Part shown: in pieces, positions 1 to 22,018 of the stretch | How the letters are laid out: every line of letters begins with the position of its first letter | Numbering within the stretch: position 1 is the first letter of the stretch | NCBI GenBank assembly: GCA_949130485.1 | Contig: OX422186.1 | Location: 3,017,313 to 3,081,312 of the forward strand | Length of the DNA: 64,000 nucleotides | Origin: Agelas oroides | Lineage: Eukaryota; Porifera; Demospongiae; Agelasida; Agelasidae | Direction: 5' to 3' | Position numbers and translations under genes: made by a program | The notes under the pieces: generated by a model | What the model saw: the letters and a program-made list of their open reading frames with translations, nothing else | The model's database searches: none | What the model was told of the DNA's origin: nothing

Positions 1-642
1 ACTGTCTCCACTGTCACTACTGTCATTACTGTCACTACTGTCTCCACTGTCTCCACTATCACAACTCTTTTCACCGTCACTACTGTCACTACTGTCACCA
101 CTGTCACAACTCTCTCTGCTGTCACTACTGTCACTACTGTCACTACTGTCTCCACTGTCACTACTGTCTCCACTGTCACTACTGTCACTACTGTCTCCAC
201 TATCACCACTGTCACTACTGTCTCCATTGTCAGTACTGTCACTACTGTCTCCACTGTCACCACTGTCACTACTGTCTCCACTGTCACTACTGTCACTACT
301 GTCTCTACTGTCACTACTGTCACTACTGTCTCCACTGTCACTACTGTCTCCACTGTCACTACTGTCTCCACTGTCACTACTGTCTCCACTGTCACTACTG
401 TCACTACTGTCACTACTGTCACTACTGTCTCCACTGTCATTACTGTCTCCACTGTCATTACTGTCATTACTGTCACTACTGTCACTACTGTCTCCACTGT
501 CATTACTGTCATTACTGTCACTACTGTCACTACTTTCACAGCTCTCTCCACTGTCAACTGTCACTCCTGTCACTATTGTCACTAATGTCACTACTCTCAC
601 TACTGTCTCCACTGTCGCCACTGTCACTGGATGTTAATGTTA
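1..642. repeat. 9-bp minisatellite, block 1 (ACTGTCACT-type)
   Basis: Tandem array of a 9-bp unit close to ACTGTCACT, alternating with TCCACTGTC variants and occasional CACAACTCTC-type interruptions. It runs off the left edge, so its true length is unknown. It encodes long low-complexity Ser/Leu or Thr/Val open frames that are a by-product of the period being a multiple of three. The same unit recurs in opposite orientation from about 1080. Confidence 0.95.
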
Positions 643-1079
643 CATATTGCCATTTTGGAAACCTTTCTAGCACGTTTTTAGTTATGTTTTCTTGCCTCTG
701 GTTGATGATTACACTTTCAAAAGGGATAGAGGTTATATTTGAATACATGTATCCTTCCATACCCACCCATCACTGTACCAGATACCTATTTTGAGCATTG
801 ACAATGAGAGATATATAGTACCATTGATATGGTGTAACTACTATGTGACTGGTTTTTGCTTATGATTTTTGAGCTCATATAAACGCACTTGTACTTGACA
901 GTTGAAATCTGTGTTTTGTTAAACCTTTCCACCTCTACAATCATTTTCAATGCTGTAAATGAGCATCTGGTACAGTTGTAATGATGGCTGGGTAGTATGT
1001 AAAATACTAAGTAACTGGTTTTCGGTTGAAATGTGTGCCTCCATTACACAAACACACATGGATATGATCTCGCAGAAGA

Positions 1080-2205
1080 ACTTTGTGACAGTAGTGACAA
1101 GATTGACAGTGGAGACAGTGGAGACAGTAGTTACAGTGGAGACAGTAGAGTCAGTCGAGACAGTGGAGACAGTAGTGACAGTAGTGACAGCAGAGAGAGT
1201 TGTGACAGTGGTGACAGTAGTGACAGTAGTGGCGGTGGAGAGAGTTGTGACAGTATGACGGTGGAGAGAGTTGTGACAGTGGAGACAGTAGAGACAGTGA
1301 AGACGGTGGAGACAGTTGTAACAGTGGAGACAGTGAAGACGGTGGAGACAGTAGTGACAGTGGAGACAGTAGAGACAGTAGACACAGTAGTGACAGTAGA
1401 GACAGTAGTGACAGTAGTGACAGTGGAGACAGTAGTGACAGTGGAGACAGTAGTGACAGTAGTGACAGCAGAGAGAGTTGTGACAGTGGTGACAGTAGTG
1501 ACAGTAGTGACGGTGAAAAGAGTTGTGACAGTGGTGACAGTAGTGACAGTGGAGAGAGTTGTGACAGTGAAGACAGTGGAGACAGTAGACACAGTAGTCA
1601 CAGTAGTGACAGTTGAGACAGTGACAGTTGAGACAGTTGTGACAGTGGAGATTTTAGTGACAGTAGTGACAGTAGTGACAGTGGAGACAGTAGTGACAGT
1701 GGTGACAGTGGAGACAGTAGTGACAGTAGTGACAGTGGAGACAGTAGTGACAGTGGTGACAGTGGAGACAGTAGTGACAGTAGTGACAGTGGAGACAAGT
1801 GACAGTGGAGACAGTAGTGACAGTGGTGACAGTGGAGACAGTAGTGACAGTAGTGACAGTGGAGACAGTAGAGACGGTAGTGACAGTGGAGACAGTAGTG
1901 ACAGTAGTGACGTAGTGACAGTTGAGACAGTGACAGTGGAGACAGTAGTAACAGTGGAGACAGTAGACACAGTAGTGAAGTAGTGACAGTAGTGACAGTT
2001 GAGACAGTGACAGTGGAGATTTTAGTGACAGTGGAGACAGGAGTGACAGTGGAGACAGTAGCGACAGTGGAGACAGTAAAGACAGTGGAGACAGTAAAGA
2101 CAGTAGTGACAGTGGAGACAGTAGTGACAATAGAGACAGTAGTGACAGTGGAGACAATAGAGAAAGTAGTGACAATAGAGACAGTAGTGACAGTATAGTG
2201 TTGGG
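1080..2205. repeat. 9-bp minisatellite, block 2 (inverted: GACAGTAGT-type)
   Basis: Tandem array of GACAGTAGT/GACAGTGGA units, the reverse complement of the block at 1-642. Interruptions such as GAGAGAGTTGTGACAG mirror those of block 1. The 437 bp between the blocks (643-1079) is ordinary AT-rich sequence without a gene I can support. Long frames on both strands here are repeat artefacts. Confidence 0.95.
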
Positions 2206-9156: not shown

Positions 9157-10812
9157 AAGTCACAAAAAAGTTTGCCAAACGCAAACAAGCACATGTAGGG
9201 ATGAAATCCTCAAAAACCAACCAAACAAGACGGGAACGACACCACAATACTTTTACATCATCCCTACATCTTGTGCCATTTTGCCAAAACTGTGTGTTTG
9301 TATTTGTTTTTTAGTTGTGTGTAGAAGAGGGTTGTCTTGTAGATGGAAGGGTGTGGCGTGGGTGTGTTGTGCATAGTGAGTATGTTGTGTTGTTGGTGGT
9401 TGCTACTGAGTGTAGCAGGTATGGTCCAAGTTGTGTGTAGAAGGTGTGGAGTGAGTGAGGAGTGGTGAGTGTGTGTGGTATGTTGGAATGTGCATTATGT
9501 TGTTAAGTTTTATGCCTGTTTAGCATGATAGATATGGGTTGTCTTGTATACAGGTGGCTGTGAAGTGAGTAGTGGTAATTTTGTAATGCTTTGTGAAGGA
9601 TGGGTTATTTTGTGAGATAGTTGAATGGAGTGAAGTACTATGTTTGTTTGTGGTTGGTGTGGGCTAATAATTACAAATGTAGAGGGTTTTGTGTTGTGTA
9701 CAGGTGGCAAAATGGCACAAGATGTAGGGATGGTGTAAAAGTATTGTGGTGTCGTTCCCGTCTTGTTTGGTTGGTTTTTGAGGATTTCATCCCTACATGT
9801 GCTTGTTTGCGTTTGGCAAACTTTTTTGTGACTTGTTTCTGTTGTTTTTTTGTTGTTGTTGTGTAACCACACCCCAAGTGAAATGACTTGTTATGTAGTT
9901 TATTGTTGATGTTGATGGATTTCTGGAGGATGTTAGCTGTTTGCACTTATCCACTTGACAATGGAATCATGGGTGTAACTGTTGTCTAATTGGGTATGTG
10001 CATGTGTGTGTGAGTGGTTGTTCTAAGGCACTGTGGTCTCGGGGTCCTCCCAATAACGGGTATGGGAAGATGCCCTTTTCTTTTCAGGGTTCTTCCAATA
10101 ACTAGTAAGAGAGTACGCCCGGGAAGATGCCCTTTGTTTTTCCGGGTTCTTCCAGTACTTGTTACGGGACGCTTGCCTTTTGCTTTCTTTGTTTCGCAGA
10201 TAGTTCTGCTTATCCCGCGCCCGTTTCTTGTGGACGTTACGCATACTGCGTTCCTTGTCAAATCCAGCACAAGTACGTCAACTGCTGTATGAAAGTAGCA
10301 ACATATGCAATCGTTTGGGAATCAATCGATCGTCAAGTTCTCTACGGAAGTAGAATAACCGCAGCTGCATGCCAACTTCACGTGCTGTAGCTGTTGAACT
10401 TCTGTTGACGTAATCGCTATGAATATTCTATTCTAACAAAATGGCGTATAGCAGCAAGCATAAGCGTGGGGTTACCTGAGAATCGCCGATTAATTCGACT
10501 TCTTTCTTTGAGAACGATGAGTGGTGGGTACAATACCCAGTAATTTATGCTGATCTTTCGCGTTTGAATCGTTGTAATAGCTTCAGCCGTTGTCGTGCTA
10601 TCGTGGTGAGCAAAAGAAGAAGAAGAAGAAGTCAGAAGATAGACGATTTGCCTTTTTTAGCGACTTGATGTCAGGTATACTTAGCGATGCTTTCCAGCAA
10701 ATTTAACGATCCTGTTGCCCATGGAAGCACTCGATAATGTCTGATATGGCTCATGGAGGCCGTTGACTTATCTAACGCGGACATTTCGAGCGTGTCATTT
10801 GTGCACTTTGAA
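9157..10812 (-). mobile_element. Helitron-like element, copy A (3' part; continues at 20378-20437)
   Basis: Non-autonomous Helitron-like element on the minus strand. The two parts (9157-10812 and 20378-20437) sum to about 1.72 kb. Its 5' end (at 20437) starts TC followed by a 9-bp hairpin, ATGGCGTAC/GTACGCCAT. Its 3' end (at 9157) has a hairpin GTTTGC/GCAAAC 13 nt from the terminus. It sits between A and T with no target duplication, as Helitrons do. The last bases are GTGACTT rather than the canonical CTRR, so the subfamily is uncertain. It contains a ~130-bp inverted repeat (9157-9286 and 9704-9832) and a remnant Helitron-type N-terminal frame. The Mutator-like element at 10813 cuts it 60 bp from its 5' end. 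Confidence 0.78.
10023..10244 (-). pseudogene. Helitron Rep/helicase N-terminal remnant
   Basis: Short frame beginning MRNVHKKRARDKQNYLRNK, with repeats of the form YWKNPEKxRASSR. Basic (Y)xxNPEKxRAxSR repeats like these precede the Rep domain in some invertebrate Helitron proteins, as I recall. No Rep or helicase follows, so the element is non-autonomous. Copy B has replaced part of this region with other sequence. Confidence 0.5.
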
Positions 10813-11098
10813 ACTAGCGGCTAGCGACAGGAACGTTGCCATCTCATAAAATGACGTAATAAGAAATTATTTTCACGTGATTCATTTTCGAATGGCATGA
10901 CACAGTACAGTGTAATAGTACAATGAAGCTGTAATCTGTGTAGACATAGTGCTCTCCAGAAGCAGAGGGAAAAACGCACACAAGACAACGTACAGACGAG
11001 ACAACAACAATACAAAGTGATGGAGACAACTAAGACAATAGGTAAGTGTAGTGAATACATGTAGAAATATACAGCAATGTATCCGTAACTTTCCATTA

Positions 11099-14000
11099 TT
11101 ATCGCTCGATCCTAAGCTTCTTTGGCTCGATGCCACAGTTGTTGCACATCCACTCTTCAGGTACCTCATGGAGGTTAACACATGACCTTTGGAGATTGAA
11201 ACATTTTAAAATCATGTTCAAAAGCATATACTAAGCTGAATTATGTCACAATATTAGCTAGAAATTTATTCACTTACCAGTGAAACCACAAATCACAGGA
11301 ATCACACTGAATCATGTTCTTTTTGGCAGTTATCTCTTCACAGGAAGTGCACCTCCAACTACTACAGATAGCGTCAACTTGCATAGAAAGGAAACATAAT
11401 TTGGCAATAGCATGCTGTATCTGACTAGTCTCATGGCTCAGACCAGGGAAGGGTTTGGTGAACACCCATGACTGGAAGGCAATTAGCTAGATAATGATAA
11501 TGGTACCAAATTTTAATAATGCACTCTTGAAATACCAATTCTGAAGTGCTCACACTTCCTCGGTAGTATAGTCAACGTGTTTGTACAGCTCCTGAAGTAG
11601 CAGAAAATAATGCCCTGCCTCTGTTGCCATTTTCGACGCTCTTTTCTACCCAAACAGTGATATATTGTGTCATGTAAAAAGGGACTGCAACATGATTGAT
11701 GCACTGTACAATTGTATATTATGCAGTTTACCAGACCCTTCTGTTTGTTTTTTTTTTGTTTTTTTTTTGTAGTAGTCAGTCTGGTTTATGAGATTAGTAT
11801 CTAACCTGCTTGTTGTATCATATCCCAAGCATCAGGCTTAAAGTACTCCTGGACACACACGAAGTCTGTGTCGGCAACTTCATCTGGAATGTCATCAAGC
11901 CTGACATCTGCAACTGCAATTGGATGCCCGGTGCTGATGGCCCTGGTGATGGCCGATTCTTCACAAAACCACTGAAGAATACCTGAAGATAAATGAACAT
12001 TTTGCAGCTTGTAGCATGCCAAAGTTGTTAGGCCTATGCTAATGTAACTTACTGCTTGTCCTCTTAGATAGTCTTCCCTTGCAACCTCCATAAATAGAGG
12101 TTAATGGTCCAGAATTTAGAAGGGAGGTGCATATGTAGTCCTTTTCTTCAGTTGATGGTTTTACTAGCCGAACAGTGGGGCGCTTGCACTTGTTCTTAGT
12201 TGAAAAAAATCGGCGTTGAGGTGTGATGTTTTTGTTGCTTGGTTCAGGTCCAGTTTTGTGTGGCAGCTTTATTTCTTTTGTGGTGTGACTGAATGATTTG
12301 ATAATACTAATTGCTGAGGTCACATGTGATTTAGCAGATAAGAGGGCCACTGTACTACTGCAGTGGTTGACTTGAGCACAAAGAATTGACAACTTTTCCT
12401 GCAGTTTCTCCCTCAGTGATACAACCTCAGATTCAGAATCTGTGCTACGCTTGCAGTGTAGGTCACGAAGGATGCATTCTGATCCCACTTCATTAACAGG
12501 TGGAGGTGAGTGAGGATCAATATCCAATTCTGGGCCATGATCATGTAACAATGTATCTGGCTTCTCTTGTTTGAAACGGACAACAAGATGAACGTGCTTA
12601 CAAATTGTATTGTGGATTAAATGATCAGGACAGTTACACGAGTAGCTATGAACACATACATTACATTTTGTGCACCTTAGACAGCACTGAACTTGACACC
12701 CATCACCTTCCTCTGTTACATAGTACTCATGCCTCTTATCACTGGATGTAACAATCCAGCTGGTGTCACTGTGCTCTGTCACCAAAGATGTTGGCAGTTT
12801 CTGGCTTGTGAGGTGTCTGGCCATGATGGTGTGTATACGACCAGTTACTTTCCCTTTCTCTAGTTTCACAAGTCTCTCGAATGCCTTGTCTCTTGCAAAT
12901 TTTAGAAGAACATGTATACATCTATCAACTCGCTTGTTCACTTTTCCTTTCAAATAGATGTGTTTGAGGACGTGATGAAATGCCTCTACATACATGTTTG
13001 TATTAACAAAGGCTACCTTACGGTAGCACGCTGCCCACTGCTGTTTTGTTTCAGCATAGTATTGGGAAAAGTAATCACCAAATGTTCGTGCTATTTTAGA
13101 AAGTTTTAGCTGCTGAAGTGTTTTTTGTAGCAAAGTTTCAAATTTGGATATGCTGGTTTCCTCCAGCAACACCCTTAAATTGTGGTACACTCTAGCTTCG
13201 GTTTCCTTATCTCCAATAAGAGATTTGAGGTTTGTTCTCCATGCCCTATCAACATGCCAGGTACATAACAGTTTTTTAGGACCAGGCCCGAAGACAGCAA
13301 TCCAGGCGGTGTAAAACTGTTCTGCGTCATCAGACATAAACCAGGCTGGCACAATGTCTCCCACTTTCTCCTTTAGTCTGTTGAAGTAATTTATCAAAAC
13401 AAACTGGTCTTGTCTGTTTGACAAACACCAAGCTACTGGAAACCCCTCACCAAATTCATCAATTACCAGGACAGAGATGAGTAAAAAGTCATAGCCGTTG
13501 GTCCCATGTGTTGCATCCACACAAACAACCCTATTTGGTGCGAAGGTCTTCAGCATATCCCTTTGAAGTGGAGTTTGAAGAACTAGTACAAAATCTCGGT
13601 CTTCAAGGTTATCGCAGTTCTCTGGCTGAGATTGGCCCTGTGATTTAACCAGTAACACAGGGTTATCTTCTCCCTTAGTTTTCAACTCTTCAATCCAGGC
13701 ACCAACACTCACTGCATCGATTGGATGTTTTTCTACACCCTTTAACCCATATGTCTTTTCTATGTTTGCAATGTCCTTCCTTGTAACCAAATGGATTCTA
13801 TTAAACCTGCTGCCAACATTGTCCCTTATCTCATCCAAAATCCTTTCAAAAGTCACTCCCTGAGCCAGTTGTCCAGAAATTCTCTGATGGGCTACCTCTG
13901 GTAGCCTGAGGTGTCCCAAAGTTTGAGTGTGACCATAGTGTGAGTGACAAACTTCAACCAATATGGTGTGTTCAAGTAGGTGACGTGTCACTATCAAGGC

Positions 14001-17000
14001 TGCAGTGCAGTGAGCATTAATTTTAGATGAGCCTTGTGATTTAAGGTGACGCTTACCTGCACTTTTTGTTTGAAAAAAACCACTTCTGTTACAGTAGTAG
14101 TATGTCAGTGTAGTTTCTCCTTTGCCCTTAACTCCAGTTACCTTTGTGAACCAAGACCTTGTGTCTTTCTCATACTCTTCCTTCCACTCCATGAATTCTG
14201 TTGGTAAAGGAAGTATTTCTGACAAGCATTCATTGACATGCATGCATTGTTGACACATACCTTCATCACTTTTGAATGTCTTCTTTTCTGTCATCATTTC
14301 AATTCCATGTTCTAAGGATAAGTGTTGACGTAACTGAGCAAGATGTCTACAGTGAAAACTACACTGTGCTTCTTTGCAAAGAATGCTTTCGCTTCCAGTT
14401 GTATGTGGTTTGTCACTTTTGTGCACCCGCTTCATGTGATGATGTAGACTGCCACGATGTTTATAAACTTTGTTGCAGATGTCACATACAAGTCCTTTGT
14501 GTACACTAGTGCGAGGGTCACTTTGTTTCACACCTGGAGGGTCATTCTGGGTGACGCTCGTGGGGGAGTCATTGTGGGTGACGCTCATGGGGGGGTCATT
14601 CTGGGTGACAGTCATGGGGGGGTCATTCTGAGTGACGCTTGTGGGAGGGTCATTCTGGGTGACGCTTGTGGAAGGGTCATTCTTGATGACACTCGTGGGA
14701 GGGTCATTCTGGGTGACGTTCGTGGGAGGGTCATTCTTGATGACACTAGTGGGAGGGTCACTCTGGGTGATCCTCATGGGGGGGTCATTCTGGATGACAC
14801 TCGTGGGAGAGTCATTCTGGATGACACTAGTGGGTGAGTCATTCTGGGTGATGCTCGTGGGAGGGTCACTCCGATTGACGTTAGTGAGTGGGTCATTCTG
14901 GATGTCACTCATGGGAGGGTCATTCTGGGTGATGCTCGTGGGAGAGTCATTCTGGATGGCACTAGTGGGTTGGTCAATCTGGGCTACATCCATACTTGCT
15001 AACATAGCTGCTCCATTGTATGAGCAATCAAGTCGCTCAAGGCAGTTAGGTCTAGGGGTATGTAGTCAGATATTTAACATGCAGTAGAAAATATTCCTAG
15101 CTGTATAGACTCACAGGATATGTCCACTGATGATTTCAAACAGCATCTCATAATGAATCCTGGTCATCTCTCTCTATGAGATGAGAGAGAAGGAGGGTGA
15201 CTCAACAGTGTACTGCATGTATTTGATGTGACATGTACCTGGTTGTATGTTGGATTCTGATGAAGAACAATGCACTCAGCCATCTATTATGTGAAGACCA
15301 GCATATTCATTGCTGTTAGGTATACTGATGTACAGATTCCATACCTTCAATGCAAACACCCCACAGTCATAATCATTTTCTTGTTTGGGCAGCTCCTAAA
15401 CGGGTAAGTAGAAACACATTTAAGATTCTTTAAGCAGAATATCAAGATCATTACTTCACTTACCCAGCAAAGATGGATTGTCCAGCCTCTCCATGCCAAA
15501 GGTTTTCCAGTCTCCTTGATGTGCCTTGCTTGCATGTATAAGCTAAAAATGTAAGGGAGCGAGACACGTATATCTCCCATATTTTGTGATTTTAAAACAA
15601 CCTACAGAAGTTTCTTGATCAATGAAAGTCCACTGCAGCAGTCGATAGAATCACCATATGAAATTACTCTTTTGGAGAAATCAACCACCTGCAAAGAATA
15701 AGCTTGTATCTCCATTCATTCATATACTTAGCATCAATCTTACAAGCATTGCCCAGTGAAAACCAAGGTGTACTGGAAGTATCCATTTTGTGAAATTAAA
15801 CAGCTTGTCCTGTAGTGAGAATGGTCAGTTTGCATTACATGAGTAGACCACACAAACTGCATGTCAAGAACTTTATAGTGAAATTTACATGTTTGAAGAA
15901 GTCTTTCACAGTACCCTCCACCCCACTTTTGAGGAGCTTTTCTGAGAAGAAGCTGGTCAAGGGATACACTGTGGAGGACTAAGTAATAAATATGTTTGAG
16001 ATGATTAGCAAGTTATTTCATACTGAAATTGTTTAATTATACCTTGGTGTTCATAGATGTAGCATGTCTTGCTATCAGTGCCGAGTACAGTTGACAACCT
16101 ACATGAGTTTTATTTTAATATAGGTAACTGTCGTAACAGTAACTACAACAGTACTTACTTCATCATTGAGCCAGCAGAAACCACTGTTTGGAACCATCCA
16201 CCTTTGCCTGAGTGTTCTCAGACTTTGCCTGCTCACTGTCACTTTCTTTCTCCTGTTGTACCAGGAAGAAGGTAACTCGACAGTGGCAACAATCTCAGTG
16301 ATGTTGCTGTTCTTCAGAAGATCAAGGCACTTGGAAATATCTGGAAGATGAAATAAACTCTGAAATCAAATAGATGCCTGCAGTGCTTTGCAGTTACAAA
16401 CCTTCTGGAGTTGGAAACCAAGGATTTCCACCTGATTGCAAGGTTGGAACTTTTATCTTTCTGTTCTGTTGTAGATTACGCAACTCGTCCACTGACTGCA
16501 GTATGCTTTTGTGTAATTTAGGTGCTGGTTCACTGTTTTGAGCAGACTCCAGAAGAAGTTGAAAAAGCATGAGCTGCTTTTGTTGAATCACCACACCTTC
16601 ATTGCGATTCAGCCTAAGGGACTTTGTGCAGGTTGGTGTACGCCTGCCGGCTTCCTGTTATGCACAGACATCATGTTTATGTTTGTTGGTGTTTCGTTCA
16701 CATAACATACATGCACTCACCCTCTCATAGAAGAAAAGGTAGGGCTTCTGTGACAACATATTTTCTTTTTTTATGCATGTAATCTACGTACCAATAAGGA
16801 GAGTGCATATTGACTTGGTGGTGATAATCCATTATAGAAGCCCAATGTCTCTATGCTAACCTTGTAGTCATCCATCTTGTACCATGCTGTGCCTTTTCTC
16901 ACATATGCTATGTAGTGGCCTCCTTGGAGGGTGCCTCCCTCATGGCAGATAAACCCCCTTAGTTGATATGTTGGTTTCTGAAAACAAACAACTGATTTCA

Positions 17001-20000
17001 ATTGGTACACTGCTTTAGACTTAAAGTATGGTATGACCATTGGCTTACACTATTCCATGAAAGCTGTTCAGGGTAGGCGATGTGACTACCTTCCTTTTTC
17101 ATTTTGCCAGCAACTTGTTTGAAACTGTTGAAAAGATCATAAGTATAATAATTATCATCATCTATTTTCATGGAATACTTTTACCCACCGCTTCAGTTGA
17201 ATGATGAGGAGATCCGATGTCTTGCTGATCACTGTATCTTTGCTGGCATCTGTAAGTTTCTGGCACCTGAAGAGGTATTGACTCTCATTATGTAAACTAC
17301 CCTAGCATACAAACACCCTTTAATTTACTTGGTGCAGAAGTATTGGTTATCAGCTTCCAACGTCTCTCTCTGAAAAGCCTTCACTAAACATTCTCCCAAG
17401 CTTGAACCCTATATACGTTGATATAAATAAAAAAATTCATTTTGCAGAATAAGAATTATAGCAGTGTGCATTTACTAACATTAAGAGCAAGTGAGATGTG
17501 GTTGCTCAGCTCTTTGCTTTCTGAGGTAGTATGACATTCGTAGCATGTCACTGTATGAGAAGAGTGGGGATTGTATGTGTACATTCTCTTAAACTGAGCA
17601 TGTACTACCTTTGTGCAGGTCTGGACTTCACAAATCTCATCCAACCGACTTTGATGGCCAAAGACACTGGTAAATGAAGATTTGTATGAAATTACTGTTG
17701 ATGGTACGTATCTGATGAAAGGCCTCATGGTTACCTATTGCAGCTGACAGGAAGCTCCCTGTTCAAATATTGGAATACATTTATCAGAAATTCATGAGCA
17801 TCTTCTTGCTTTCCTGGTGCCCATGTAGGCAGGATTGCTGTCAGATTGAATCACATCAAGATTTTTGAACACTATTTCATCACACAATAGTCGGTGCATC
17901 TTTACCTTTCAGGTTCCTGTAGAGAGTTGTTGGGACTGCAACCTCACTTGGTCTTTCCAGACAGTGTATTGAGAGAGATCGCAGTGTACACAGAAGGCAG
18001 AAGCTGGAACTGGTTCCATGTACTGGAGATGTACACCAACAATCAATACTTTATCAGATGTTATTATAAGATGCCTGCACTTGTATATAAAAAGTCACAA
18101 AAAAGTTTGCCAAACGCAAACAAGCACATGTAGGGATGAAATCCTCAAAAACCAACCAAACAAGACGGGAACGACACCACAATACTTTTACACCATCCCT
18201 ACATCTTGTGCCATTTTGCCAAAACTGTGTGTTTGTATTTGTTTTTTAGTTGTGTGTAGAAGAGGGTTGTCTTGTAGATGGAAGGGTGTGGCGTGGGTGT
18301 GTTGTGCATAGTGAGTATGTTGTGTTGTTGGTGGTTGCTACTGAGTGTAGCAGGTATGGTCCAAGTTGTGTGTAGAAGGTGTGGAGTGAGTGAGGAGTGG
18401 TGAGTGTGTGTGGTATGTTGGAATGTGCATTATGTTGTTAAGTTTTATGCCTGTTTAGCATGATAGATATGGGTTGTCTTGTATACAGGTGGCTGTGAAG
18501 TGAGTAGTGGTAATTTTGTAATGCTTTGTGAAGGATGGGTTATTTTGTGAGATAGTTGAATGGAGTGAAGTACTATGTTTGTTTGTGGTTGGTGTGGGCT
18601 AATAAGTACAAATGTAGAGGGTTTTGTGTTGTGTACAGGTGGCAAAATGGCACAAGATGTAGGGATGGTGTAAAAGTATTGTGGTGTCGTTCCCGTCTTG
18701 TTTGGTTGGTTTTTGAGGATTTCATCCCTACATGTGCTTGTTTGCGTTTGGCAAACTTTTTTGTGACTTGTTTCTGTTGTTTTTTTTTTGTTGTTGTGTA
18801 ACCACACCCCAAGTGAAATGACTTGTTATGTAGTTTATTGTTGATGTTGATGGATTTCTGGAGGATGTTAGCTGTTTGCACTTATCCACTTGACAATGGA
18901 ATCATGGGTGTAACTGTTGTCTAATTGGGTATGTGCATGTGTGTGTGAGTGGTTGTTCTAAGGCACTGTGGTATATACATGACTGTCTACCTGTTCTGTT
19001 GTATGACAGGGTTGTAACACTGTATGTTGTGTGTTGTCCAAGGAACAGTTTCTATAGCTGGTTATACATTGTGGGCAGGTGTGTGTAGGTTGTGTATGGT
19101 GGGTGGCAGGTACATAGGTCATAAAGAGGTAAGGCATAACTGTGGTAAAGGAACCCTTGGAGAGTAAGAGTGTTTTTCCGGGTTCTTCCAATACTTGTTA
19201 CGGGACGCTTGCCTTTTGCTTTCTTTGTTTCGCAGATAGTTCTGCTTATCCCGCGCCCGTTTCTTGTGGACGTTACGCATACTGCGTTCCTTGTCAAATC
19301 CAGCACAAGTACGTCAACTGCTGTATGAAAGTAGCAACATATGCAATCGTTTGGGAATCAATCGATCGTCAAGTTCTCTACGGAAGTAGAATAACCGCAG
19401 CTGCATGCCAACTTCACGTGCTGTAGCTGTTGAACTTCTGTTGACGTAATCGCTATGAATATTCTATTCTAACAAAATGGCGTATAGCAGCAAGCATAAG
19501 CGTGGGGTTACCTGAGAATCGCCGATTAATTCGACTTCTTTCTTTGAGAACGATGAGTGGTGGGTACAATACCCAGTAATTTATGCTGATCTTTCGCGTT
19601 TGAATCGTTGTAATAGCTTCAGCCGTTGTCGTGCTATCGTGGTGAGCAAAAGAAGAAGAAGAAGAAGAAGTCAGAAGATAGACGATTTGCCTTTTTTAGC
19701 GACTTGACTGTCAGGTACTTAGCGATGCTTTCCAGCAAATTTAACGATCCTGTTGCCCATGGAAGCACTCGATAATGTCTGATATGGCTCATGGAGGCCG
19801 TTGACTTATCTAACGCGGACATTTCGAGCGTGTCATTTGTGCACTTTGAATGTGGCCGCCATTTTTTTTCGGGGTCATCCCTACATATGGCGTACTACCG
19901 TACGCCATGATATACTTACAATGCTGAAGTCGTGGTCCAAATTCTGATAGCACACCTTGCAAGCTCGGAGTATGGAACAAACACTGAAGAACAGAGTTCA

Positions 20001-20067
20001 TGAAACATGTCTTGCCTAGGTTTTCAAGGCCAGCGGCAATTTGACAGTGAGTCATGATCTCTGCCAT
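11099..20067 (-). CDS. USP-Ulp1-MULE transposase-SWIM-PHD fusion (24 predicted exons)
   Basis: Hand-predicted exons (high to low coordinate): 20067-19920, 18022-17906, 17837-17735, 17666-17480, 17408-17329, 17266-17189, 17124-17049, 16977-16792, 16747-16721, 16654-16402, 16340-16155, 16098-16043, 15978-15889, 15809-15744, 15688-15606, 15542-15464, 15395-15345, 15283-15239, 15173-15115, 15051-12053, 11982-11806, 11684-11587, 11471-11278, 11186-11099. All junctions are GT-AG and phase-matched; the sum is 5526 nt, 1841 codons plus stop. Domains: C19 ubiquitin protease, aa ~13-334 (Cys21 in NLGKTC, QEDAHEFL, His284 in GGHYIAYV, WYKMDDY); Ulp1 C48 protease, ~450-656 (WLNDE, His547 in HLGFHW, Asp554 in VVDF, Cys616 in YDCGVF); two C2H2 fingers; DDE transposase with Asp~1169 (VDATHG), Asp~1231 (SDDAEQ), Glu~1346 (VEAFHH); SWIM finger ~1460; PHD finger ~1787-1835. 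The family role is cut-and-paste transposition; the proteases may remove ubiquitin or SUMO from host or element proteins (inference). Weakest junctions: exon 11 donor and exons 21-23. Confidence 0.85.
14530..14990 (-). repeat. 30-bp coding minisatellite in the MULE gene
   Basis: About fifteen copies of a 30-bp unit encoding a 10-residue repeat of the form QNDPPTSVTx, at the junction between the Ulp1 domain and the first C2H2 finger. It stays in frame throughout. It probably forms a flexible linker; length variation between copies is likely. Confidence 0.9.
18092..19910 (-). mobile_element. Helitron-like element, copy B, inside MULE intron 1
   Basis: Complete second copy of the element at 9157/20437, with the same termini (TC plus hairpin at 19910, hairpin plus GTGACTT at 18092) and the same A^T insertion without duplication. 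The first ~870 bp and the 5' third are nearly identical to copy A. The middle differs: about 18976-19171 replaces 10036-10158 of copy A. It lies 9 bases downstream of the MULE exon 1 donor, leaving GTAAGTATA intact, so splicing of the host gene could survive. Confidence 0.8.
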
Positions 20068-20182
20068 GCTCAAGCAGATGCACGAATTGCACGAATTTCC
20101 CGCGAAAAGGTACACGTGGTACAATCATTGGAACCGCTCGTTGGGGGGAAATCCCGTGTAAACTACAGCTAACGCCCACGCG

Positions 20183-20338
20183 TGGCAACGTTCCTGTCGC
20201 TAACCTCCACAGGAATACTCAGCTAGCGCCAGGAATATACTACCGCGCATGCGCACAATGATGGCAACGTTCCTGTCGCTAACCCCCACAGGGATACTCA
20301 GCTAGCGCCAGGAATATACTACTGCGCATGCGCACAAA
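20183..20338. repeat. MULE subterminal tandem repeat
   Basis: Two units of 80 and 78 bp beginning GGCAACGTTCCTGTCGCTA, followed by the terminal copy in the TIR at 20341. Each unit also holds the palindrome GCGCATGCGC. Repeated TIR cores like these are candidate transposase binding sites (inference). Confidence 0.85.
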
Positions 20339-20377
20339 ATGGCAACGTTCCTGTCGCTAGCCACTAGTCACTTTGAA

Positions 20378-20437
20378 TGTGGCCGCCATTTTTTTTCGGG
20401 GTCATCCCTACATATGGCGTACTACCGTACGCCATGA
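20378..20437 (-). mobile_element. Helitron-like element, copy A (5' terminal 60 bp)
   Basis: Terminal hairpin ATGGCGTAC-TACC-GTACGCCAT, then GA at the junction with the LTR. The same 60 bp ends copy B at 19851-19910. It is separated from 9157-10812 by the Mutator-like element and its target duplication CACTTTGAA. Confidence 0.8.
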
Positions 20438-20934: not shown

Positions 20935-22018
20935 AGGTGAGGGACCGAGTGAGGGATGAGGTGAGGGACCGAGTGAGGGATGAGGTGAGGGACCAAGTGA
21001 GGGATGAGGGGAGGGACCGAGTGAGGGATGAGGTGAGGGACAAAGTGAGGGATGAGGTGAGGGATGAGGTGAGGGACCAAGTGAGGGATGAGGTGGGAAC
21101 CAAGTGAGGGATGAGGTGAGGGACCGAGTGAGGGACCAGGTGAGGGTGAGGGATGAGGAGAGGGACCAAGTGAGGGATGAGGTGAGGGACTGAGTGAGGG
21201 ACCAAGTGAGGGATGAGGTGAGAGACCAAGTGAGGGATGAGGTGAGGGACCGAGTGAGGGATGAGGTGAGAGACAGAGTGAGGGATGAGGTCAGGGACCA
21301 AGTGAGGGACCGAGTGAGGGATGAGGTCAGGGATCGAGTGAGGGACCGAGTGAGGGATGAGGTCAGGGATCAAGTGAGGGACCGAGTGAGGGACCAAGTG
21401 AGGGACCAAGTGAGGGATGAGGTCAGGGACCAAGTGAGGGACCGAGTGAGAGACCGAGTGAGGGACCGAGTGAGAGACCGAGTGAGGGATGAGGTGAGGG
21501 ACTGAGTGAGGGATGACGGAGGGACCGAGTGAGGGATGAGGTGAGGAACCGAGTGAGGGATGAGGTGACGGACTGAGTGAGGGATGAGGTGAGGGACCGA
21601 GTGAGGGATGAGGTCAGGGACCAAGTGAGGGACCGAGTGAGGGATGAGGTCAGGGACCGAGTGAGGGACCGAGTGAGAGACCGAGTGAGGGATGAGGTGA
21701 GGGACTGAGTGAGGGATGACGGAGGGACCGAGTGAGGGATGAGGTGAGGAACCGAGTGAGGGATGAGGTGACGGACTGAGTGAGGGATGAGGTGAGGGAC
21801 CGAGTGAGGGATGAGATGAGGGATGAGGTGAGGGATGAGGTGAGGGATGAGGTGAGAGATGAGGTGGGGGACTGAGTGAGGGATGAGGTGAGAGATGAGG
21901 TGGGGGACCGAGTGAGGGATTAGGTGAGGGACCAAGTGAGGGATGAGGTGTGGGACCGAGTGAGGGACCAAGTGAGGGATGGGGAGAGGGACCAAGTGAG
22001 GGATGAGGTGAGGAGAGC
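20935..22018. repeat. 12/24-bp minisatellite (GTGAGGGACCGA)
   Basis: Tandem array of 12-bp units, mostly GTGAGGGACCGA alternating with GTGAGGGATGAG. Long frames on both strands ([12 protein letters not shown]) come from the repeat period and are not genes. It lies downstream of the Argonaute 3' exons. Confidence 0.95.

Follow-up and report, generated by a model that had tools for sequence, protein, structure and literature searches.

Plant Mutator-like elements (MULEs) of the Kaonashi type carry an Ulp1 domain (PMC13317346; this and the other papers are cited from excerpts). KIU-VANDALs with Ulp1 undo the silencing of their own kin with sequence-specific hypomethylation, and the role of the Ulp1 domain itself is given as unknown (PMC13317346). 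In animals, Ulp1 occurs in Mutator elements of hydra and lancelet, and Ginger1 elements carry Ulp1, OTU or Ulp1 plus PHD; a role of the ubiquitin pathway was inferred by the authors, who suggested an action in repair (PMC2836005). We analysed a stretch of 64,000 nucleotides of the sponge Agelas oroides (contig OX422186.1, positions 3,017,313 to 3,081,312 of the forward strand; hereafter the window), for which the original prediction, which had also pointed to the Ulp1 of Kaonashi-type elements, proposed a Mutator transposon encoding a deubiquitinase, a SUMO protease, a transposase and a PHD finger in one intact gene.

The window element shares with the Kaonashi and KIU-VANDAL elements the presence of an Ulp1 domain in a MULE. 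However, the plant elements are without terminal inverted repeats (TIRs), their Ulp1 lies in a separate VANC/KIU gene, and the excerpt makes no mention of a ubiquitin-specific protease (USP) (PMC13317346), whereas the window element has TIRs, a 9-bp target site duplication (TSD), Ulp1 spliced to the transposase exon and a USP in front. The hydra and lancelet elements and Ginger1 are likewise animal DNA transposons with a SUMO or ubiquitin protease, and sometimes PHD, but the excerpt does not mention a USP beside Ulp1, and Ginger1 has its protease at the C-terminus and is built around a Gypsy-like integrase (PMC2836005). No such core was recognised in the spliced window product (rve, 14.1 bits against a cut-off of 32.6). 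MuDR-6_HM of Hydra is a MULE with a deubiquitinase-type protease ('Ovarian Tumour Gene'), but this is OTU in place of USP, and Ulp1 and PHD are not listed in the excerpt (PMC6446971). A Trichomonas protein joins Peptidase C19, the USP family, to a transposase, but the latter is of the transposase_11 type and Ulp1 is not mentioned in the excerpt (PMC2836005). Rehavkus, compared by features alone, has a 9-bp TSD, a PHD finger and a minisatellite, which lies before the 3' TIR (PMC6446971) and not, as here, in the N-terminal part of exon 20. Ulp1 and SUMO are not mentioned in the excerpt of PMC5735166. As far as these excerpts go, Ulp1-MULE (animals included), OTU-MULE and C19-transposase links are already in print, while the pairing of USP and Ulp1 in a MULE apparently is not. 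No report of the USP, Ulp1 and MULE combination was found in the open-licence PMC literature, in agreement with the original prediction, to which a USP-Ulp1-PHD MULE was not known.

The window holds a TIR-bounded element whose protease and transposase domains have their catalytic residues; a sister copy has an open frame, and the order USP-Ulp1-MULE occurs in three lineages of this genome. We propose, with a probability of roughly 60%, that the window element is a copy of a TIR-type MULE family whose autonomous members encode both proteases together with the transposase and would thereby counter ubiquitin- or SUMO-dependent restraint.

Structure and encoded domains of the element

The features of the element, which belongs to what we call family A, are as follows (families B and C are described below).

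10804-10812, no strand: left 9-bp TSD, CACTTTGAA, read from the letters
10813-20368, minus (coding) strand: whole MULE of family A, delimited by TIR ends, 9-bp TSD and sister copies with identical ends
10813-10842, plus strand: TIR at the 3' end of the gene, ca. 30 bp
11135-11351, minus strand: PHD finger, end of exon 23 and start of exon 24 with the intron 11187-11277 between; stop codon at 11099-11101
11278-11684, minus strand: exons 22-23 as originally modelled, boundaries uncertain
11806-11982, minus strand: exon 21, C-terminal region like that of the sea-urchin relative P0030
12053-15051, minus strand: exon 20, transposase exon, part of a 1008-residue open frame
12594-12656, minus strand: SWIM-like CxC...CxH zinc finger, Cys/His conserved in the alignment
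13251-13529, minus strand: MULE DDE/RNase H-like domain, Asp1169 and Asp1231 (Glu1346 at ca. 12986)
14421-14489, minus strand: C2H2-like zinc finger, below the Pfam cut-off
14536-14983, minus strand: in-frame minisatellite, 27-bp period, 16.6 copies, N-terminal part of exon 20
15052-15114, minus strand: phase-2 intron of 63 nt between Ulp1 and the transposase exon; family B has its donor at the matching codon, also in phase 2
15115-16340, minus strand: Ulp1 (C48), exons 11-19; His547, Asp564, Gln610, Cys616; exon 12 probably with a frame-breaking 1-bp deletion relative to sister copies
16402-16654, minus strand: exon 10, linker between USP and Ulp1
16721-20067, minus strand: USP (C19), exons 1-9; Cys21, His284, Asp box DDYKV; exon 4 probably with a frame-breaking 1-bp deletion relative to sister copies
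20339-20368, minus strand: TIR at the 5' end of the gene
20369-20377, no strand: right 9-bp TSD, CACTTTGAA

The two TIRs are alike over ca. 30 bp with one mismatch, as in TIR-bearing MULEs, and the TSD length falls within the 8-11 bp of this group. The end sequence ACTAGYGGCTAGCGACAGG occurs in the window at 10813-10831 (plus) and 20350-20368 (minus), that is, twice against 0.02 matches expected.

A manual gene model, guided by the USP and Ulp1 motifs, runs from the ATG at 20067 to the stop at 11099 in 24 exons, all GT-AG, and comprises 1842 codons with the stop counted, which reproduces the originally predicted structure. Exons 22-23, however, are not fixed in any of the copies: with exons 1-21 held constant, 175 splice combinations of the window copy remain in frame to the PHD finger, and in P0030 the DAW region leads to PHD without a stretch corresponding to these exons. 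A 26-exon model from a naive splice optimiser, with the same start and stop, was dropped because the exon with the Ulp1 His was misread.

Pfam profiles were run on the spliced window product and on that of the sister copy L015. In the window product, matches above the cut-offs were obtained for UCH (3.9e-37, profile positions 1-254 of 254), Peptidase_C48 (6.3e-18), MULE (PF10551; 1e-7, 32.7 bits against 27.6) and PHD (4.9e-6), in line with the proposal that one MULE carries USP, Ulp1, transposase and PHD; ZSWIM1-3 RNaseH matched at 1.1e-7, and the C2H2 and FAR1 matches stayed below their cut-offs. The SWIM profile, which had been suggested for the same check, did not match the window product and, among the proteins scanned, matched P0081 only. 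The Cys and His residues of the CxC..CxH pattern are kept in 95-100% of 81-82 aligned transposase sequences; a SWIM-type zinc finger is common among MULEs without being universal. The conserved D, D and E, which we take to be the catalytic triad, are present in 82/83, 83/83 and 81/82 aligned sequences, those of the window element included, as originally predicted.

The USP part contains the Cys, His and Asp/Asn boxes, and its nearest solved structure by sequence is USP36 (5.9e-33), suggesting that it is a putative USP36-like deubiquitinase. The Ulp1 part has its nearest solved structure by sequence in SENP1 (8.3e-24), with the best similarity to SENP1, SENP5 and SENP2, and is a putative SENP1-like deSUMOylase, the preference for SUMO being assigned by similarity. 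The predicted positions of Cys21, His284, His547 and Cys616 proved exact, but Asp554 did not: the alignment with SENP1 places the DS motif 17 residues past His547, so that the catalytic Asp is Asp564, and the set His547, Asp564, Gln610 and Cys616 is complete. Family A is likely to encode, in one spliced gene, a protein of ca. 1950 residues with the order USP36-like USP, SENP1-like Ulp1, low-complexity minisatellite linker, C2H2-like finger, MULE DDE domain, SWIM-like finger and PHD.

Sister copies, related families and relatives elsewhere

The window copy is identical to copy L009 over 7499 aligned bases and is 99.5% and 96.9% identical to L015 and L013, respectively; L013 lacks the 5' end beyond window position 20197 and has many stops. 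Relative to the window copy, L015 and L013 each carry an additional base in exon 4 (USP) and another in exon 12 (Ulp1). L015 is open across 25 exons (1,947 residues) when exon 4 is split by a 58-nt GT-AG intron and the strong exon 11 donor is used, and the same splice pattern applied to the window copy led to a stop at codon 143. The 24-exon window model is thus in frame only because the 58-nt intron is kept and the donor is shifted. The L015 product gave better matches than the window product for both UCH (6.1e-40) and C48 (3.3e-22), and its USP Cys/His/Asp and Ulp1 His/Asp/Gln/Cys sets are complete. From these comparisons, the window copy and L009 have probably been disrupted recently, while the family itself has not; the word 'intact' probably does not apply to the window gene but fits L015.

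Absence of USP and Ulp1 from other copies had been named as a sign of one-off capture. Three further copies of family A, L013 among them, have both domains, and so do two further MULE lineages, whereas some Ulp1-MULE loci, described below, show no USP; by this criterion, the outcome was largely favourable to the original prediction. Family B was found at C17, C19, C2 (two loci) and C1, and its transposase is 37% identical to that of family A in the longest aligned piece. In the available stretches, the minisatellite and C2H2 pattern are present at C17, C19 and the two C2 loci, and 4/5 loci (all but C19) have a PHD-like end; the C1 copy breaks off within the transposase. Upstream, the Ulp1 Cys motif is present at C17, C19 and the one extended C2 copy, and USP boxes were recognised at C17 (Cys box included) and C19. 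In family C (C8), USP boxes and Ulp1 motifs accompany a 1168-residue frame with minisatellites and MULE, the latter scoring 30.9 bits in one profile search and 26.3 in another (cut-off 27.6); tblastn gave no alignment of this MULE with that of family A. In families A, B and C, an in-frame minisatellite lies between Ulp1 and transposase (14536-14983 in the window; L015; L027 and L028; L048). Each family has its own, the units differing in sequence between families and the length varying among copies.

Co-location was evaluated on scored candidates only, comprising 119 MULE and 85 UCH matches (E ≤0.001). A UCH match lay within 12 kb of 8/119 MULE matches, as compared to 0.23 expected under random placement, and in all 14 UCH-MULE pairs within this distance UCH was upstream on the same strand, with none in the other three orientations. 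The eight loci comprise four of family A, two of B, one of C and a doubtful one, L049 (C1:6873200-6880800). L049 was considered as a fourth family and rejected: a decayed family C-like USP/Ulp1 part adjoins a MULE of another type, behind which lies a second C48 domain (E 1e-4), likewise of the other type. We regard L049 as a decayed C-like copy that has a different element next to or within it; it is still counted among the eight. Several C-type MULEs have a weak Ulp1 exon match 0.95-1.8 kb upstream (5/10 matches, E 0.08-0.23). The C48 profile had 20 matches in the genome, and none fell on a family A copy, where the Ulp1 exons are short.

The transposase frame has 80 relatives in the protein database (E ≤0.001), among them proteins of Lytechinus, two beetles, two hemipterans and a frog. 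A C4HC pattern is present in the last 160 residues of 16/82 relatives, counted irrespective of sequence completeness; PHD is weak by Pfam in the relatives (P0030, 23.8 bits; P0082, 18.1 bits; cut-off 24). In P0082, one predicted protein contains MULE and C48 in the order MULE-C48, with the PHD match below the cut-off. The N-terminal 378 residues of P0081 were considered as Ulp1 by eye (HW, DS, Q and C) and rejected; since they have no Pfam C48 match and no PDB match up to E 10, P0081 was not counted as support. The Ulp1 part of the window element matched only two proteins in the database, both plant C48 proteins.

Ends and insertion sites

Two repeats within the element complete its feature list.

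18091-19909, no strand: 1.8-kb repeat inside intron 1, not in the otherwise identical L009
20183-20359, minus strand: subterminal 79-bp tandem repeat, 2.3 copies, with a TIR-like core

The ACTAGYGGCTAGCGACAGG end occurs 36 times exactly in the 259-Mb genome, as 14 facing pairs (paired by position) and 8 singles. Eleven of the 14 pairs span only 1.26-1.82 kb and, at this length, are presumably non-autonomous elements; the other three span 9.6 kb (window), 7.7 kb (L009) and 11.1 kb (C18). The C18 interval (C18:4542483-4553580; L010, L011) has exact family A ends and a 9-bp TSD, and no match to the family A encoded protein was found in it. TSDs of 9 bp are also present at L002, L004 and L008, and that of L015 is GCAACGGAC on both sides.

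The host site of the window element is a second copy of the 1.8-kb repeat of intron 1 (flanks 9501-10812 and 20369-20436, 99-100% identical). As the repeat lies within the element and the element within a copy of the repeat, each was apparently inserted into the other. L009 (C4:2991598-2999334) lies in inverted orientation ca. 18 kb left of the first base of the window. It has one insertion junction in common with the window copy, inside the same repeat, and differs on the other side, and comparison of its two flanks revealed no matching 9-mer pair; L009 may therefore be a local duplication and not an independent transposition. Directly right of the window element, at 20937-22013, is a 1.1-kb array of 12/36-bp units (GTGAGGGAC...), and the left edge of the window (1-1624) contains long imperfect inverted repeats with the look of a repetitive array.

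Readings of the element

According to the proposed mechanism, the zinc fingers and the transposase would bring the proteases to the element ends and to target chromatin, where ubiquitin and SUMO could be stripped off the transposase and off silencing or repair factors, while the PHD finger may tether the complex to histone H3 tails; the element would thereby escape ubiquitin- and SUMO-dependent restraint. SUMO is used in small-RNA-directed silencing in animals (PMC8131101), and the anti-silencing of KIU-VANDALs provides a precedent for such a function (PMC13317346). Of the possible roles, the release of restraint by deconjugation at element-bound complexes is favoured here.

Several observations weigh against this proposal. 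The search for longer fused relatives yielded only P0081 and P0082, neither with UCH (0/2), and the full USP, Ulp1 and MULE combination was not found outside this genome among the long fused relatives in the protein database. L013 and the family B copies that were read are decayed, and the extended C2 copy of family B has no USP box. Synonymous and nonsynonymous differences were 0 and 2 between the USP parts of the window copy and L015, and 4 and 11 between L013 and L015; there is no clear synonymous excess among family A copies and no sign of selection, which is thus argued from the distant families only. Given their composition, the eight co-located loci represent only three or four independent events. 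Two C-type Ulp1-MULE loci that were read have Ulp1 motifs but no USP box within ca. 4 kb farther upstream, which indicates that Ulp1-MULE is the wider association and USP the narrower one. Furthermore, the USP boxes of family A show pairwise identities of 0.47 and 0.55 to human USP36 and USP8 and of 0.44 and 0.39 to families B and C; as they are at least as close to the human proteins, a single origin of the USP is not demonstrated.

The closest rival, which we consider possible but somewhat doubtful, is that the proteases serve the transposase itself, by protecting it from ubiquitin-dependent degradation or by tuning repair factors at the cut, and not anti-silencing. Fusion in cis places the enzymes on the transposase, and ubiquitin and SUMO proteases of transposons have been proposed to act on DNA repair (PMC2836005, excerpt), but the present data do not separate this reading from anti-silencing.

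One polypeptide with USP, Ulp1, transposase and PHD is likely on sequence grounds. Alternative transcripts or splice forms could also give two or three products, namely a USP-Ulp1 protein ending after Ulp1 and a separate transposase from the internal ATG of the 1008-residue frame, and this appears unlikely. In families A and B, the unspliced Ulp1 frame meets a stop just past the domain, and P0001, a 94% identical relative, is predicted from this internal Met. However, the stop sits in a GT..AG phase-2 intron. The donor of this intron closes the Ulp1 part in family A, and family B has it at the same codon and phase. Any phase-2 GTRA donor yields a stop codon if it is left unspliced, so that the stop does not argue for a gene end. 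In family B, the intron measures 71 nt at C19 and 76 nt at C2, or slightly more, and leads in frame into the next exon; at C17, the same acceptor would give 29 nt, which is too short, and the next choices are 44 or 47 nt. Moreover, the 63 nt between the Ulp1 and transposase exons leave little space for a new promoter, and P0082 unites MULE and C48 in one predicted protein, though in the other order. The shared intron position thus speaks for a single polypeptide, as far as a sequence comparison can.

That the proteases are inactive relics retained as folded linkers is improbable: the Cys box of family B (NICYAIS) is off the usual USP motif, and the extended C2 copy of this family lacks the Ulp1 DS motif, but all catalytic residues of both proteases are present in L015 of family A. 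That pieces of host USP and SENP genes were captured just once, as a Pack-MULE-like passenger, is very improbable and already largely refuted. MULEs are known to capture genes, and the similarity of the family A USP boxes to human USP36/USP8 is no lower than that to other transposon USPs; but the domain order is shared by four copies of family A and by families B and C, whose transposases are divergent, the catalytic sets are full and splicing is in frame.

Returning to the release of restraint, a broader version of this proposal can be put forward only tentatively: in animal MULEs, the deubiquitinase and deSUMOylase cassette may be conserved as a counter-defence module that transposases of different clades have either exchanged or kept, and its fusion to the transposase would allow a single polypeptide to erase ubiquitin and SUMO marks at its own insertion sites. 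To our knowledge, a transposon-encoded enzyme that reverses SUMO-using silencing has not been established in animals. Family A offers a testable system, as it comprises copies identical to each other, one copy with an open frame and many partners that are presumably non-autonomous, and encodes two protease domains. These observations imply that the Ulp1 that accompanies MULE transposases in plants, hydra and lancelet can occur together with another kind of modifier protease, as it does here in lineages with widely divergent transposases.

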